64,000 bases of DNA, taken from the NCBI RefSeq assembly GCF_013166655.1, contig NZ_JABKCA010000012.1:1-64000 (forward strand), in the 5' to 3' direction. Numbering within the stretch: position 1 is the stretch's first letter; the number at the start of each line of letters is the position of its first letter. Positions 15,238 to 22,681 of the stretch are shown piece after piece. Below the pieces are notes generated by a model. The model was given only the letters and a program-made list of their open reading frames with translations, made no database searches and was not told the origin of the DNA. A program made the position numbers and the translations under genes. Source of the DNA: Lentimicrobium sp. L6 (GTDB taxonomy: Bacteria; Bacteroidota; Bacteroidia; Bacteroidales; UBA12170).

Positions 15238-16896
15238 ATGAAGAAATTATTAAGCCTTGCATTACTTTTATTTGTTTTCTTAGTTGCAGAAGCTCAGGAA
15301 TATAAATATGCGGTTCATTTTACACATAAGAATTTTACACCATATAGTGTGGACCAACCAGAGGAGTTTCTCTCACAAAGAGCTATTGATCGTCGTGCCA
15401 AATATAATATTCCAATTATTGAGGAGGATTTACCTATAGATCCAGAGTTAATTGAAAATATCCTGGGTTTAAATGATAATTTTGAATTAATTATTCATGT
15501 AAAATGGTTAAATGCCATTATTATTTCAACACCAGATTCTACAGATGTGGAAATTTTGGATTTGTTAGATGATGTGGAAAAAGTAGTACAAGTTTATAAT
15601 TCTAATTTTAAATCTTCGAAAAGTGATAAACTATCCTTTGATCTAAAAGAAGAACAAATATATGCTCCTCACAAATCTACTCAAGCCTACGATTCCGCTT
15701 TCTATGGAGGAGGCTGGGTACAAATCAACCAACTTAAAGGTGAAAAACTTCATGAGCTCGGATATAAAGGTCAGGGTATGGTAATAGCAGTTTTAGATGC
15801 AGGATTTGTGGGAGTTGACGAGCGACAAATATTTCAGTCACTTTGGGATAATGACCAAATTCTGGGAACGAAAAATATGGTAGCTCCAGGAGAAACTGTG
15901 TTTGCCACTCATACTCATGGAACAGCTGTGCTTAGTACCATGGGAGGTTATTGGGAAGGGAATTTAGTAGGAACTGCACCCGATGCCGATTATTGGTTAA
16001 TTAGGACCGAAGATGGCGCTTCTGAAGCATTAATAGAAGAATATAATTGGGTGGCAGGTGCTGCTTTTGCTGATAGTGTTGGTGCCGATGTTTTAAATAC
16101 ATCCTTAGGGTATACCACTTTTGATGATCTACGAACTGACCACACATGGGAAGAATTAAATGGTGATTTAACCATTATTACTAGAGGTTCGAATATGGCA
16201 TTCCGTAAGGGAATGTTGGTGGTGAATAGTGCAGGGAACTCAGGAAATAGCTCTTGGAGATATGTTGGTGCACCAGCAGATGGATACCAAGTTTTTAGTA
16301 TTGGAGCAGTTGATGGTAGTGGGAATATTGCAAGTTTTAGTAGCCATGGCTTTCCTTGGAGTGATGATATAAAGCCGAATGTGGTGGCAAGAGGAGCTGG
16401 GGCATATGTGGCATCTGCGTTTAGCGATGTGGTTGCACCTTCTAATGGAACATCATTTTCAGGTCCAATTATTGCAGGAATGACCGCTAGCCTTTGGTCT
16501 GCCGATCCTACAGTAAGTCCAAAGATGGTAAAACAAGCCATACAATATAGTGCCAATAGATTTAATGAACCGGATACCCTTTATGGTTATGGTTTGCCTG
16601 ATTATGAAAATGCTTTGGGGATTTTAGGAATGGAAAATCTTCAATCAGAAAACCAAAATATTACTGTGGCTCCTAATCCTGTTTCTGAATCATTTTCTTT
16701 GGATCTTCAAACCAAAGAATATTTTAGTTTCACCATGAGGATATTCAATATTCAAGGAGCATTAATAGAAGAAAGAAAAATGAACTGGAATGGAAGTCCG
16801 TTAAACATAGACATCAAATCATACACAAGAGGAATCTATTTTGTAGAGGTACATGCTGCAAATAGAAACTCACAAATAAAAATCACCAAATTGTAA
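15238..16896 (+). CDS. T9SS-secreted S8 (subtilisin-family) serine protease 1
   Basis: A 552-aa secreted subtilase. Signal peptide about 1-19 (ending AEAQ), then a ~130-residue propeptide-like region containing SQRAIDRRAKYNIPI, a pattern common in Bacteroidota subtilases. The peptidase domain shows the complete triad: Asp187 in AVLDAGF, His227 in THTHGTAV, Ser406 in NGTSFSGPI. The C-terminal ~80 residues are a T9SS type A sorting domain (VAPNPVSESFSLDL, RIFNIQGALIEER, RGIYFVEVHA). It degrades extracellular protein. The next gene is a paralogue beginning 6 bases after the stop codon, so they form an operon. Confidence 0.92.
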   Translation: MKKLLSLALLLFVFLVAEAQEYKYAVHFTHKNFTPYSVDQPEEFLSQRAIDRRAKYNIPIIEEDLPIDPELIENILGLNDNFELIIHVKWLNAIIISTPDSTDVEILDLLDDVEKVVQVYNSNFKSSKSDKLSFDLKEEQIYAPHKSTQAYDSAFYGGGWVQINQLKGEKLHELGYKGQGMVIAVLDAGFVGVDERQIFQSLWDNDQILGTKNMVAPGETVFATHTHGTAVLSTMGGYWEGNLVGTAPDADYWLIRTEDGASEALIEEYNWVAGAAFADSVGADVLNTSLGYTTFDDLRTDHTWEELNGDLTIITRGSNMAFRKGMLVVNSAGNSGNSSWRYVGAPADGYQVFSIGAVDGSGNIASFSSHGFPWSDDIKPNVVARGAGAYVASAFSDVVAPSNGTSFSGPIIAGMTASLWSADPTVSPKMVKQAIQYSANRFNEPDTLYGYGLPDYENALGILGMENLQSENQNITVAPNPVSESFSLDLQTKEYFSFTMRIFNIQGALIEERKMNWNGSPLNIDIKSYTRGIYFVEVHAANRNSQIKITKL

Positions 16897-16902
16897 TCAA
16901 TC

Positions 16903-18546
16903 ATGAGGAATATTTTTACTGTTTTACTCTTGAGCTTTAGTTTTGCATTAATGGCTCAGGTAGCACCAAATTATTATGCAATTAAATTTACTGATAAAGA
17001 TAATAATACCTATACACTTGATAATCCTGAAGCGTTTTTATCTGCAAGAAGTATGGAAAGAAGAGTAAATCAGGGGATTAGTTATGATCTAACAGATTTA
17101 CCTATCACTTCTTCGTATGTCAATCAGGTTGCAGAAATAGGAGTTGAAGTGAAACGTCAAGTAAAATGGATCAATACCATATTAGTTAAGACTACAAATC
17201 CGACATTAATTGAAGAAATTCTTGCTTTGTCTTTTGTGGAGAGTGCTACAAAAATTGCCGACGTGAATGCTAACCCTCCTATTAAACCTAAAAACTTCTT
17301 TGAAGTAGAGGAGGAGCTAGAACAAAATAATATTCAAGCATCAAGACTAAAATCCACTTCTACATTAAACTATGGTCAGGCCACTGAACAAATTGAGTTG
17401 ATTAATGGTATACCATTGCATGATATGGGATATCAAGGACAAGGAATGGTGATTGCCGTTTTAGATGGTGGTTTTATTGGCGTTCCTGATAGAATTGTTT
17501 TTGATTCTCTATATGCCAATGGACAGATTTTAGGAGCACGAGATTTTTGCTCTGAAGAAAATGACCCATTTGCAGGAAGTACTCATGGTACTAAGGTTTT
17601 ATCTACCATGGGAGCCAATTGGCCTGGTCAAATGATAGGTACCGCTCCAAAGGCAGATTATTGGTTATTAAGAACGGAATATACCGATTACGAAAATATT
17701 ATAGAAGAATACAACTGGTTGGTTGGAGCTGCATTCGCTGATAGTGTTGGAGCAGATATTATCAATTCTTCTTTGGGTTATACTACATTCGATGATTCAA
17801 ATTTCGATCATACTTGGAATGAAATAAATGGAAATACAGCCATTGTTACAATCGGAGCTGATTTAGCTGCTAAAAAAGGTATTCTACCTGTAAATAGTGC
17901 AGGAAATGATGGAAGTAGTTCATGGCAATATGTTGGATTTCCAGCTGATGGTGATAGTGTTTTTGCAATTGGAGCAACTGATTATTCTGGGAATATTGCT
18001 TCTTTCAGCTCTAGAGGCTATCCTATGGATTCTCGAATTAAACCAAATATCTGTGCAGTAGGTTCTGGAACAACAGTGGCAGATGCTTACAGTGATTTTA
18101 TTAGCTCGGCTAATGGTACTTCTTTTTCTTCTCCTACTATTGCAGGTATGACTGCATGTTTATGGCAAGCAAATCCTGAATTTAATAATAAACAAATAAT
18201 GGATTTATTAGAAATGTCAGCTTCTCAGGCTTCTAATCCAGATAAAACTTATGGTTATGGAATTCCTGATTATGAAGCAGCCAATGCTTTTGTGGGAATT
18301 GAAACTTCCCCTCAAAAAGAAACTGCTTCTTTTGAAGTTTATCCAAATCCAAGTAGAGATTATATCCATTTATCATTGCAAAGTGATATTTCCGAATTAA
18401 GGATATACTCCAGTAATGGACAACTTATCTATCAAACCTACGGAAACCAAACAGATATTAATGTTTCTAAATTGAATACTGGGATTTACATGATTCAGGT
18501 TGTGATTGGAAATGGGGTTTCTCAATCGAAATTCTATAAAGAGTAA
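16903..18546 (+). CDS. T9SS-secreted S8 (subtilisin-family) serine protease 2
   Basis: A 547-aa paralogue of the preceding gene with the same layout: signal peptide (ending LMAQ), propeptide with SARSMERRVNQGI, catalytic domain with Asp188, His228 and Ser407 all present, and a T9SS sorting domain (VYPNPSRDYIHLSL, IYSSNGQLIYQ, NTGIYMIQVV). Many blocks are near-identical to the first copy (EYNW..GAAFADSVGAD, LGYTTFDD), whereas the propeptide and substrate-loop regions differ. This points to tandem duplication followed by divergence of specificity. The two are cotranscribed. Confidence 0.92.
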   Translation: MRNIFTVLLLSFSFALMAQVAPNYYAIKFTDKDNNTYTLDNPEAFLSARSMERRVNQGISYDLTDLPITSSYVNQVAEIGVEVKRQVKWINTILVKTTNPTLIEEILALSFVESATKIADVNANPPIKPKNFFEVEEELEQNNIQASRLKSTSTLNYGQATEQIELINGIPLHDMGYQGQGMVIAVLDGGFIGVPDRIVFDSLYANGQILGARDFCSEENDPFAGSTHGTKVLSTMGANWPGQMIGTAPKADYWLLRTEYTDYENIIEEYNWLVGAAFADSVGADIINSSLGYTTFDDSNFDHTWNEINGNTAIVTIGADLAAKKGILPVNSAGNDGSSSWQYVGFPADGDSVFAIGATDYSGNIASFSSRGYPMDSRIKPNICAVGSGTTVADAYSDFISSANGTSFSSPTIAGMTACLWQANPEFNNKQIMDLLEMSASQASNPDKTYGYGIPDYEAANAFVGIETSPQKETASFEVYPNPSRDYIHLSLQSDISELRIYSSNGQLIYQTYGNQTDINVSKLNTGIYMIQVVIGNGVSQSKFYKE

Positions 18547-18912: not shown

Positions 18913-21114
18913 ATGATATACCTAGATTATAATGCCACAACACCTATCGACCCTATCGTAGCGGAGGCTATGAGACCTTATTTAGAGGTGTATTTTGGCA
19001 ACCCGTCCAGCTCACATCAACTGGGTGCCGAAACTAAAAAGGCCATAGAGAAGGCTCGTAAACAAGTGGCTGATTTGATAGGAGCAGAATCCTCCGAAAT
19101 TATTTTCACAAGTGGAGGAACGGAATCGAATAATTATGCTTTAAAAGGAGCGGCCTTTGCCAATAAGCATAAAGGGAATCATATTATCACTTCAAGTATT
19201 GAGCATCCCGCTATTTTCGAAGTATGTAAGTATTTAGAAAGAAATGGTTTTGAAGTGACATACTTACCTGTTGACGAATTTGGAATTATCCATCTTAAAG
19301 ATTTAGAGGAGGCCATTAAAAAAGAAACCATCCTAATTTCTGTGATGCATGCCAATAATGAAGTAGGTAGTATCCAGCCCATTTCTAAAATTGGTAAAAT
19401 AGCCCAAGAAAGAGGTATATTGCTTCATAGTGATGCAGCGCAGTCCATTGGAAAGGTTGCTGTGGATGTGAAGGAAATGGGATTGGATTTGATGAGTATT
19501 GCTGGCCATAAGCTTTATGCGCCCAAAGGAATTGGTGCGATTTATATAAAAGAGGGAGTTGTATTAGAAAAGCTGATGCATGGTGCAGATCATGAGCAAA
19601 ATATGAGAGCTGGAACAGAGAATGTTTTGGAGATAGTTGGCTTGGGAAAAGCGGCTGAAATGGTGACAGAGAAACTCAAGGATTATCAGCTTCATTATGC
19701 AAATATGCGTGATATGCTATGGGATTCATTAAAGAAAGAATTACCTCATATCAAGAGAAATGGTCATGCTGAAAAATGTTTGGCAAATACCTTAAGTGTT
19801 TCCTTTCCTAAAATTGAAGCCAATACTTTAATTGCAAGATTAGAAAATGTTGCTGCATCCGCTGGTGCGGCTTGTCATTCCGAAAGCATTGATGTATCTG
19901 TAGTTTTGGAAGCCATGAATATACCTTTAGAATTTGCTATGGGAACAATTCGGTTTTCAACTGGTCGTACAACATCCAAAGAAAACATAGATGCCGCAGT
20001 TAAAGAAGTGGTATCAAATGTGAAAATATTAATGCCAAAAGCGGATGGTTCTACAATTCATTTGCCTGAAAATCGAGATATTTCTAAAATTAAACTTACT
20101 CAGTATACCCATGGCTTAGGCTGTGCTTGCAAAATAGAACCTCAGAAATTACAGCAGGTTTTGAAATCTTTGCCTCAAGTTCATGATGTAAATGTATTGG
20201 TGGGGACAGATACTTCAGACGATGCAGCTGTGTATCGATTGACTGATGAATTGGCTTTGGTTCAAACTCTGGATTTCTTTACACCAATAGTGGATGACCC
20301 GTTTCAGTTTGGAGCTATTGCTGCGGCCAATGCATTGAGCGATGTTTATGCCATGGGTGCTAGGCCTATCTTTGCTTTAAACATAGTTGGATTCCCTGAG
20401 GAGGCACTTCCTATGGAAGTATTGGAATTGATTCTTAAAGGTGCCCAAAGCAAGGCTGAGGAAGCTGGTATCCCTATTTTGGGAGGACATACCATTGAAG
20501 ATCCCGAACCTAAATACGGAATGGTGGTTAGTGGTTTGGTTCATCCTGACCAAATGATTAAAAATAAAGGCGCAAAAATAGGGGAGGTCTTGGTTTTAAC
20601 TAAGCCCATAGGAACAGGAATTATCTCTACCGGAATAAAACGTGGTTTAGTAAATGAGAAAATAGCAAAACAAGCCATTGAGTTGATGAGTTCCTTAAAT
20701 AAAATACCAGCTGAAATCATGTCTAAATATGACGTTTCTTCATGTACAGATGTAACAGGGTTTGGATTAATGGGGCATTTGAAAGAAATGGTAGAATCTT
20801 CTGATGTAACTGCTGAAATTAGTTTTGATGCCATTCCTTTTATTGATACAGTAAAGGATTTAGCTGCTGCCAATATTATTCCTGGCGGAACTTATAATAA
20901 CCGTGATTATGTAGAGCATGTAGTTGACTTTGGAAAACTTTCTCGTACTTCTCAATTATTGATTTGTGATGCCCAAACTTCGGGTGGTTTGTTGGTTTGT
21001 CTACCTCCAGCTCATGCAGAATTATATGTAAATGAATTAAAGAATTTGGGTATGAAAGATGTGACTATTATTGGTGAGATTATTCAGGAAGGTAGTGGAA
21101 TAGTCATCAAATAA
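18913..21114 (+). CDS. selD: fused selenocysteine lyase/cysteine desulfurase-like - selenide, water dikinase
   Basis: A 733-aa two-enzyme protein. Residues 1 to about 372 are a PLP-dependent NifS/IscS-class aminotransferase fold: YLDYNATTPIDP at the N-terminus, PLP lysine Lys200 in AGHKLYAPKG, and catalytic Cys321 in AGAACHSES. The ACHS context and the following segment resemble animal selenocysteine lyase more than IscS. After a ~20-residue linker, residues about 390-733 are complete selenophosphate synthetase: GLGCACK with Cys404, Cys406 and Lys407 (the E. coli Cys17/Cys19/Lys20 positions), ALSDVYAMGARP, GGHTIEDPEPKYG and DVTGFGLMGHL. The nucleophile is Cys, not selenocysteine. The likely role is to liberate selenium from selenocysteine and pass it directly to the kinase half to make selenophosphate. 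It is monocistronic. The partner selU begins at 63769. Confidence 0.93.
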   Translation: MIYLDYNATTPIDPIVAEAMRPYLEVYFGNPSSSHQLGAETKKAIEKARKQVADLIGAESSEIIFTSGGTESNNYALKGAAFANKHKGNHIITSSIEHPAIFEVCKYLERNGFEVTYLPVDEFGIIHLKDLEEAIKKETILISVMHANNEVGSIQPISKIGKIAQERGILLHSDAAQSIGKVAVDVKEMGLDLMSIAGHKLYAPKGIGAIYIKEGVVLEKLMHGADHEQNMRAGTENVLEIVGLGKAAEMVTEKLKDYQLHYANMRDMLWDSLKKELPHIKRNGHAEKCLANTLSVSFPKIEANTLIARLENVAASAGAACHSESIDVSVVLEAMNIPLEFAMGTIRFSTGRTTSKENIDAAVKEVVSNVKILMPKADGSTIHLPENRDISKIKLTQYTHGLGCACKIEPQKLQQVLKSLPQVHDVNVLVGTDTSDDAAVYRLTDELALVQTLDFFTPIVDDPFQFGAIAAANALSDVYAMGARPIFALNIVGFPEEALPMEVLELILKGAQSKAEEAGIPILGGHTIEDPEPKYGMVVSGLVHPDQMIKNKGAKIGEVLVLTKPIGTGIISTGIKRGLVNEKIAKQAIELMSSLNKIPAEIMSKYDVSSCTDVTGFGLMGHLKEMVESSDVTAEISFDAIPFIDTVKDLAAANIIPGGTYNNRDYVEHVVDFGKLSRTSQLLICDAQTSGGLLVCLPPAHAELYVNELKNLGMKDVTIIGEIIQEGSGIVIK

Positions 21115-21212: not shown

Positions 21213-21583
21213 CTATGCTTGCATCTTTTTAATAATATCATCAAGACTATATTTTCCTGGGCCATAAACAAAAATCACTATTAACATTACTAAATAGTAG
21301 AAGGGTATTTCAAAACCACTGTTTCCAGCTTCCCAACCATTACCAAGGTGGACCGTAAGAATGGCAACCATCCTAACAAAAATTAAAGGAATAGAAATAA
21401 GTCGAGATCTAAAACCAAGGGCAAGTAATACGATACCAGTAGTTTAGTTCCGGAAGCCATGTGGGCATAGAGCTTCGGGAGTGGATAAGTCATACTGGCA
21501 AACCAGCTTGTTACGCTGTCTATATCGTTCCATTTATTCAGGGCTAGTTTGTAAAATCCATAAGCCAAAGTAATCCTGATGAT
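21213..21583 (-). pseudogene. DoxX family membrane protein, frameshifted and missing its start
   Basis: Two frames on the minus strand together spell one DoxX-like four-helix membrane protein. The N-terminal part (from IIRITLAYGFYKLALNKW to ASGTKLL) is read upstream, and a one-base deletion (or two-base insertion) near 21440-21448 is needed to continue into TGIVLLALGFRSRLISIP, LTVHLGNGWEAGNSG and VFVYGPGKYSLDD-like sequence ending at a TAG at 21213-21215. Two stop codons precede the first conserved residues and no ATG is found, so the start is lost too. DoxX proteins are membrane components of thiol and metal-stress systems and often accompany HvfA/bufferin precursors. It lies 225 bases downstream of such a precursor-like gene on the same strand. 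A sequencing error could explain the frameshift but not the missing start. Confidence 0.8.
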
Positions 21584-21741
21584 TTATTATAGATTATCTT
21601 TTAAAAATTCTAGTGCATTTGATAAAGAGCTGCAAACTCCAATTAATCTACATTTTATTTAGTATTTAATAAATGCTAACGCATGAAGTCATTTTCATTT
21701 TTTTAATTCAATTATATCTTTTAATGCCAGAGCATAAAAAT

Positions 21742-21807: not shown

Positions 21808-22278
21808 TTATTTGCCGTCGCCACATTTGCCGCTACCGCATTTTTCTTTTTTGGTTTTTGATTTGTCTTCTAGGCTTGCTTTAGTATCTTTCTTTGCTTT
21901 ACCATCTCCACATTTTCCATCACCACACTTGCTTATATCTGATTCTAATGTGGCACTTTTTGTAGTTGTTTTATCTTTAGATGCAGTTTTATCAACTGTA
22001 GTTTTACCGTCTCCACATTTGCCATCACCACATTTGGCTTTCTTTTCCCCTTTTTTGGCTTTTGCATCTTTAGTTGCTTTTGTGTCTTTTGTTGATTTGC
22101 CGTCTCCACATTTACCATCACCGCATTTTCCATCAAATTCTGCATCAGGGTTTGCAAATGCCAATTGCTCTTGAGGATTAGTTAAGTCTGTTTTTGCTGT
22201 TCCATTCAACATAAATGCAGCGCTTGCTACAAGCATAAAAGCTATCGATAGGATTCCAATGTTTCTTTTGTTCATCAT
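21808..22278 (-). CDS. exported Cys-Gly-Asp-Gly-Lys repeat protein, HvfA/bufferin-like precursor candidate
   Basis: A 156-aa protein. Residues 1-28 form a signal peptide. The mature part is a Lys/Asp/Thr-rich linker carrying four copies of the block KCGDGKCGDGK (the last is KCGSGKCGDGK), giving eight Cys at 52, 57, 83, 88, 118, 123, 147 and 152, always spaced five apart within a block. This closely resembles the EGKCGEGKCG repeats of HvfA/bufferin precursors, in which a DUF692 (MNIO) enzyme converts Cys into thio-oxazole or oxazolone-thioamide groups that bind copper. No DUF692 or HvfC/BufC gene is in the window, but a DoxX remnant lies immediately downstream, as in those operons. The role (periplasmic metal buffering) is inference. 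An unmodified metal-binding protein is the alternative. Confidence 0.8.
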   Translation of the reverse strand: MMNKRNIGILSIAFMLVASAAFMLNGTAKTDLTNPQEQLAFANPDAEFDGKCGDGKCGDGKSTKDTKATKDAKAKKGEKKAKCGDGKCGDGKTTVDKTASKDKTTTKSATLESDISKCGDGKCGDGKAKKDTKASLEDKSKTKKEKCGSGKCGDGK

Positions 22279-22681
22279 TTTTGTTTTTGTGCCTTAAGGG
22301 CGTTCATGTTATTTATTTGAACTAATAGTCGACGAGTTATTTTAATCCTTACAAAAAGATTCAAAAAAACTTCATCAGTTAGGATATAAAAACGCATTAA
22401 ATTTTAAAAAAAACCACCCAAAAAGCAATGAAGTTCCCTAAGCTCCAGGGCAAACGCATACTTTGTTAAAAAGCTATATTTAGAAAAAAATAGTTTAATC
22501 TATAGGTATAATGCTAGCGCGGAAATGTTTTCCGTGCGAAAATATTAATATTAAGGAATGTATTTAAATCACACCAAATCCGCGTTAGCTTTGTTAAAAA
22601 CAATTAGAAAAATAAAAGTACGCGTTTGCCCTGTCCTAAGCTCGACATACGTAAAGTTCAAGAGCTTAAACATCAGTAAAC
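22279..22681. other. intergenic gap containing a MITE-like element
   Basis: 403 bases upstream of the CGDGK-repeat gene and downstream of the DUF2279 gene. The right half is the palindromic element listed at 22437-22643. The remaining A+T-rich part should contain the promoter of the repeat gene. No coding sequence is seen. Confidence 0.6.
22437..22643. mobile_element. MITE-like palindromic element with 9-bp target duplication
   Basis: Terminal inverted repeats CAGGGCAAACGCATACT (22446-22462) and AGTACGCGTTTGCCCTG (22617-22633) match at 16 of 17 positions. Immediately outside, the 9-mer CCTAAGCTC occurs as a direct repeat at 22437-22445 and 22635-22643, as expected for a target-site duplication. 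A second inner inverted repeat, GCTAGCGCGGA (22512-22522) and TCCGCGTTAGC (22578-22588), makes the ~188-bp element foldable. No transposase is encoded, so it would move with one supplied elsewhere. Confidence 0.8.

Follow-up and report, generated by a model that had tools for sequence, protein, structure and literature searches.

An HvfA-like cysteine-rich protein of Lentimicrobium sp. L6, best read as one of a recurrent hvfA-hvfX variant in genomes with no detectable MNIO

The closest described relatives of the protein analyzed here are the HvfA/Buf_EGKCG precursors (oxazolin; the 'captophorin' Lys-Cys precursors HvfA and FonA), which have an N-terminal hydrophobic segment and repeated, paired K-C-G-x-G-K-C-G units. 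HvfBC prefers full-length HvfA, including its signal peptide, and HvfX is the uncharacterized product of the hvf operons (PMC13419390); one proposal is that DoxX proteins supply factors still missing from the account of copper binding (PMC13097082). Genes for the precursor, MNIO, DUF2063 and DoxX proteins occur 'in various combinations', and 67 of 2,583 complete genomes have a Buf_EGKCG precursor without an MNIO; these precursors were supposed either to act unmodified or to have lost their function (PMC12452194). The bufferins Buf1 (DUF2282) and Buf2 are likewise exported Cys peptides with a DoxX partner, and Buf1 clusters contain ECF sigma and anti-sigma genes. Metallothioneins and copper-storage proteins offer a further comparison, as small, Cys-rich proteins.

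We analyzed 64,000 nucleotides of the Lentimicrobium sp. L6 genome (contig NZ_JABKCA010000012.1, positions 1 to 64,000; hereafter the window), which encode a protein with both hallmarks of the HvfA/Buf_EGKCG precursors, the hydrophobic N terminus and the paired units (Table 1). Its open reading frame runs on the minus strand from an ATG at 22278 to a stop codon at 21808-21810 and specifies 156 residues, with the eight Cys grouped in four C-x4-C blocks (residues 51-61, 82-92, 117-127 and 146-156) separated by Lys/Thr/Ser-rich linkers. Seven of the repeat units are CGDGK and one is CGSGK: the four equal two-unit blocks described in the earlier note are indeed four, with eight Cys, but they are not quite equal, since the last reads KCGSGKCGDGK. 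A single-sequence AlphaFold model of low confidence (pLDDT 45) contains a helix at residues 7-21 and is otherwise uninformative about the structure of the protein.

Table 1. Features of the locus, with positions in the window
Feature	Position	Strand	Basis
HvfA-like Cys-rich protein P0001, putatively exported, 156 aa, 8 Cys	21808..22278	-	ORF, NF050137 match, G003 homologue
Putative Sec signal peptide or N-terminal anchor, ~residues 1-24	22207..22278	-	hydrophobic 7-24
Block 1, KCGDGKCGDGK	22096..22128	-	sequence
Block 2, KCGDGKCGDGK	22003..22035	-	sequence
Block 3, KCGDGKCGDGK	21898..21930	-	sequence
Block 4, KCGSGKCGDGK	21811..21843	-	sequence
Putative ECF-type promoter, TGTAAGG-N15-CGACTA	22326..22353	-	-35-like element starts 75 bp before ATG
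hvfX (DoxX family) pseudogene	21213..21658	-	alignment to intact G003 gene

The NCBIfam domain model NF050137 (KCGExKCG_twice, HvfA family) matches the protein at 21.9 bits, above its curated cut-off of 19.5, and the full-length HvfA equivalog NF050188 gives 25.9 bits, below its cut-off of 95. NF050188 is poorly suited to these relatives, because a bona fide MNIO-linked HvfA of the same genus scores only 23.1 bits. No Pfam family, DUF2282 included, was found in the protein at E≤1. Judged by its repeats, the protein belongs to the HvfA sequence family, which does not imply that it is a RiPP. The kinship with HvfA/Buf_EGKCG precursors proposed in the earlier note is therefore borne out by the NF050137 match, by an hvfX partner at the locus of the nearest relative (G003, a genome of the same genus) and by a promoter common to the MNIO-bearing hvf operons. 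Two traits that the note took as distinctive are not: a DGKCG variant is modified fully by FonBC (PMC13097082), making DGKCG an accepted MNIO substrate and ruling out Asp for Glu as a sign of new chemistry, and paired motifs are the norm in this family. The differences lie elsewhere: the window system has no MNIO, no HvfC and no LGxGxxxR region (see below), its hvfX is dead, and its protein carries mostly DGKCG instead of EGKCG, on long linkers. Compared with Buf1 and Buf2, which it resembles in its putative export, in a DoxX partner and, for Buf1, in a probable link to an ECF sigma factor, the protein lacks a DUF2282 match, MNIO and HvfC, and has another Cys pattern. It is probably metal-binding, as are metallothioneins and copper-storage proteins, but it has no Pfam match, is putatively exported and bears C-x4-C pairs on long charged linkers.

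The absence of a maturation enzyme from the window, already remarked upon in the earlier note, extends to the whole genome (G000; 5.14 Mb, 195 contigs, 96.5% complete, not closed). MNIO (DUF692, PF05114) was not found there at default thresholds or at E≤10, nor was HvfC (DUF2063, PF09836) even at E≤10; all five positive controls for HvfC (G001, G023, G050, G181, G248) match PF09836. An unnoticed MNIO or HvfC elsewhere in the assembled genome is rejected on the strength of these searches. Neither enzyme was found in G003 (86% complete). Three other genomes of the genus (G001, G005, G007) show MNIO matches at about 1e-100 and carry hvfA-hvfB-hvfC, with hvfX elsewhere.

These searches leave the proposed conversion of Cys by a DUF692 enzyme unsupported in Lentimicrobium sp. 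L6: neither MNIO nor HvfC was found in its genome or in G003, and no MNIO in 14 Bacteroidota-type genomes with the gene pair described below. The earlier note had itself counted a genome free of DUF692 as half of what would speak against it, and a search for DUF692 and HvfC/BufC genes returned neither DUF692 nor HvfC. Between its two alternatives, an orphan precursor and a stand-alone metal-binding protein, a stand-alone metal-binding (or thiol) protein fits better. We regard it as quite improbable that the protein is nevertheless a true RiPP precursor on which an unassembled MNIO or an unrelated enzyme acts in trans. Its DGKCG repeats would be good MNIO substrates, as with FonBC (PMC13097082), MNIO occurs in other species of the genus, and the genome is not closed; but the enzymes are missing from both genomes and MNIO from all 14 pair genomes, the LGxGxxxR region of MNIO-linked HvfAs is absent, and canonical clusters place B and C between A and X, whereas here A adjoins X. 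An MNIO missed through the incomplete assembly (96.5%, 195 contigs) is possible but unlikely; a contig break can hide an MNIO, as in G332, where an HvfC remnant lies at a contig edge. The thiols could also be modified by an enzyme unrelated to MNIO.

Comparison with G003 indicates that the protein is maintained. The G003 homologue is 86% identical and conserves all eight Cys, with dN of 0.076, dS of 0.97 and dN/dS of 0.079 over 150 codons; four neighboring housekeeping genes give dN/dS values of 0.013-0.061. The protein is under strongly purifying selection, although this dN/dS is an average for the entire period since the split from G003, including the time before hvfX died, and so does not bear on selection since that death. 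Together with the NF050137 score above cut-off, this homologue, its conserved Cys and the low dN/dS mean that the reading frame is not a chance one. The order of the flanking genes (NifS-SelD fusion, DUF2279 protein, phosphomannomutase) is identical in G003. The fusion, a 733-aa protein at 18913-21114 (+) that joins a cysteine desulfurase (NifS-like, aminotransferase class V) to a selenophosphate-synthase-like part (AIRS/AIRS_C), is conserved in G003. At 15238-18546 (+) two subtilase genes lie in tandem, both products bearing type IX secretion sorting tails.

In G003 the hvfX that lies about 55-105 bp downstream of the homologue is intact, and the space between leaves no room for hvfBC. Directly downstream of the window gene, on the same strand, lies an hvfX pseudogene that, relative to the intact G003 gene, has lost its start codon (ATG to ATA at 21656-21658), acquired an in-frame TAATAA at 21584-21589 and suffered a 1-bp deletion at 21445/21446. 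Both this pseudogene and the conserved promoter upstream had been overlooked in the earlier note.

Is the window gene, then, the decaying remnant of an hvf system that lost MNIO and HvfC first, has now lost hvfX, and will lose its precursor next? The lost start codon, two in-frame stops and frameshift of hvfX suggest as much, as do the full hvfABC kept by three species of the genus and the loss of function among the explanations given for MNIO-less precursors (PMC12452194); a recent decay of the whole system would also be compatible with a dN/dS that covers the period before hvfX died. Against it, the precursor carries no disabling mutation, 8/8 Cys are conserved, dN/dS is low, the promoter is intact and the same as that of G003, and MNIO-less pairs are frequent across unrelated families, so that absence of MNIO is not by itself decay. 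On balance we consider such a remnant improbable. A recent decay of the hvfABC native to the genus is likewise disfavored as the origin of the locus, since in the tree the G003 HvfX stands apart from the HvfX of MNIO-bearing congeners, on separating branches that are weak.

The promoter, TGTAAGG-N15-CGACTA, occurs once in the window, against 0.01 expected. It lies 57-79 bp before the gene in 13/16 MNIO-less loci and, with variants allowed, is found in 19/28 MNIO-linked loci, where shuffled sequences give an expectation of about 0.02 or less. The genome of Lentimicrobium sp. L6 contains three exact matches, versus none for the reversed control: one before the window gene, one in an ECF sigma gene, at its 3' end, and one ahead of a gene whose secreted product carries a type IX sorting tail. 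The ECF sigma gene is paired with that of a 96-aa HxxxCxxC anti-sigma factor (L203, 3651-4510 of G000:C37; L205, 156-1015, in G003), and the element inside its 3' end, upstream of the anti-sigma gene, reads TGTAAGG-N15-CGTCTA and is conserved in G003. Because the promoter is shared with this locus, and because an ECF sigma/anti-sigma pair adjoins hvfA-hvfX in several relatives, the window gene is probably part of an ECF regulon that is still live, and the ECF sigma factor of Lentimicrobium sp. L6 would be the one that uses the TGTAAGG-N15-CGACTA promoter.

In G063 (contig C21, L207), two further promoter matches precede, in one case, a run of FMN reductase, DUF427 and histidine-specific methyltransferase genes and, in the other, a gene for a type IX sorted protein of 725 aa, after which comes a rhodanese; these neighbors hint at a thiol or sulfur stress regulon. 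A three-domain rhodanese gene adjoins or lies near hvfX in G258 (L093) and G017 (L039), and G258 also has a secreted protein of the 725-aa type and an ECF sigma/anti-sigma pair.

The arrangement at the window locus is not confined to Lentimicrobium. Among the 393 genomes of the order sample, hvfX scores above cut-off in 19, of which 12 have an MNIO. In five of the 19 (G063, which is 99% complete, and G127, G260, G331 and G392) an HvfA-like gene adjoins hvfX with nothing between and no hvfBC; G258, where no HvfA was seen, and G332, with its HvfC remnant, are the other two of the seven in which no MNIO was found and were left out of these clean cases. When 84,980 named genomes were scanned with an HvfX alignment, 80 loci emerged, including hvfA-hvfX neighbors without hvfBC in 14 Bacteroidota-type genomes whose labels include Bacteroidales, Saprospiraceae, Flavobacteriales and Chlorobiota (the scan overlaps the order sample at L103 = G063, L116 = G260, L120 = G331 and L153 = G392). 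MNIO was found anywhere in 0/14 of these genomes and in 5/5 positive controls. MNIO-less pairs are spread over the HvfX tree, in which well-supported branches force at least four changes of state; MNIO and HvfC have therefore been gained or lost repeatedly. The window locus shows every feature of the variant, namely an HvfA-like gene followed by hvfX (here dead), no MNIO or HvfC found in the genome, and a TGTAAGG-N15-CG[AT]C promoter, and the best reading of the window protein is as one of this recurrent MNIO-less group.

Several looser relatives surround this variant. Three Saprospiraceae loci (L119, L124, L148) encode, after hvfX, an HvfA-like protein with internal EF-hand-like segments, with no MNIO; they form a separate sub-variant, since they are the three of the 16 MNIO-less loci in which the TGTAAGG-type promoter is absent, and their gene order is reversed. 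Short CGAGKCG proteins of Campylobacterota adjoin hvfX (L128, L166, L172, L175, L181), mostly in MNIO-less genomes, L128 having an MNIO elsewhere. Short lipoprotein-like frames ending in CGEGKCGK or similar (L060, L061, L062) have no adjoining hvfX and no MNIO in the genome.

The MNIO-less Buf_EGKCG precursors of PMC12452194 are comparable in that their genomes hold no MNIO, and some of those cases may be pairs of this kind. That study treats them as rare and possibly non-functional, whereas the hvfA-hvfX pair described here recurs, has a promoter of its own and shows purifying selection. In the literature covered, mostly outside subscription journals, we found no description of the MNIO-less pair as a recurrent module, of its promoter, or of the following difference in motif.

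The HvfA proteins of the two kinds of locus differ in the region between signal peptide and repeats. The motif [LM]G[STN][GA]xx[VLIA]R is present in 19/21 MNIO-linked rows, from Bacteroidota, and in 0/21 MNIO-less rows (Fisher p 9e-10, a value that ignores the kinship of the rows); of three well-supported independent contrasts, about two agree, none disagrees and one shows no difference. The motif is absent from the G003 homologue and, by inspection of its sequence, from the window protein. Given that the preferred substrate of HvfBC is full-length HvfA, signal peptide included (PMC13419390), a role for this LGxGxxxR region in enzyme recognition is plausible.

HvfX matches DoxX and, weakly, MauE and DoxD. 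The main rival to metal binding, and one that we think rather unlikely, is that the thiols serve redox or sulfur chemistry together with HvfX, leaving the window protein as a leftover thiol pool; it overlaps with the thiol-buffer branch of our preferred explanation below. These domain matches are consistent with it, as are the rhodanese and the FMN reductase/DUF427/histidine methyltransferase run linked to the promoter in G063 and the rhodanese near hvfX in G258. HvfX has no conserved Cys, however, regulon membership is a pattern match in single genomes, and the family members studied bind copper, in modified form. Some HvfX proteins (L095, L034, L064, L091) begin with MKCxxxxxC, both with and without MNIO, and this occurrence in both rules out an N-terminal C-x5-C as a mark of MNIO-less systems. 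A fold search with HvfX returned NACHO/TMEM35A as its sole match (TM 0.55, E 0.45) and gave no functional hint.

The explanation we favor, with some confidence, is that the window protein is an exported, largely unstructured Cys protein used without MNIO modification as an ECF-controlled metal or thiol buffer; its export, its control, its binding of metal or thiol and its unmodified state are all read from sequence and context. Metal or thiol stress in the envelope would free the ECF sigma factor from its small, zinc-finger-like anti-sigma partner, whose gene lies at another locus of the genome, and the sigma factor would then transcribe the window gene. The protein would pass through the Sec pathway to the periplasm, where its four thiol pairs would bind soft metals, with Cu(I) the likeliest ion and Zn(II) less likely, or would alternatively be spent as a sacrificial thiol buffer. 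The case for copper is one of analogy: the studied relatives bind it, though through thiooxazoles (PMC13097082, PMC13419390). The normal form of the MNIO-less variant would be the two genes hvfA-hvfX; in this lineage hvfX died and the protein would now work alone.

More tentatively, and short of an even chance in our judgment, the MNIO-less hvfA-hvfX pair may be an envelope module in its own right, under ECF control, with HvfX working alongside an unmodified CGxGK protein in metal loading, metal export or thiol redox, MNIO and HvfC having been gained or lost on top several times. If so, the thiooxazole would be an add-on and not the core of the hvf system. Under NCBI's current model such proteins receive the name 'oxazolone/thioamide-modified' even in genomes where no modifying enzyme is detectable, and the MNIO-less pairs are a caution against labeling all EGKCG/DGKCG proteins as RiPPs. 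The conserved TGTAAGG-N15-CGWC promoter defines a regulon that can be searched for, and genomes that keep hvfA and hvfX without modifying enzymes allow the roles of HvfX and of the unmodified peptide to be addressed directly.
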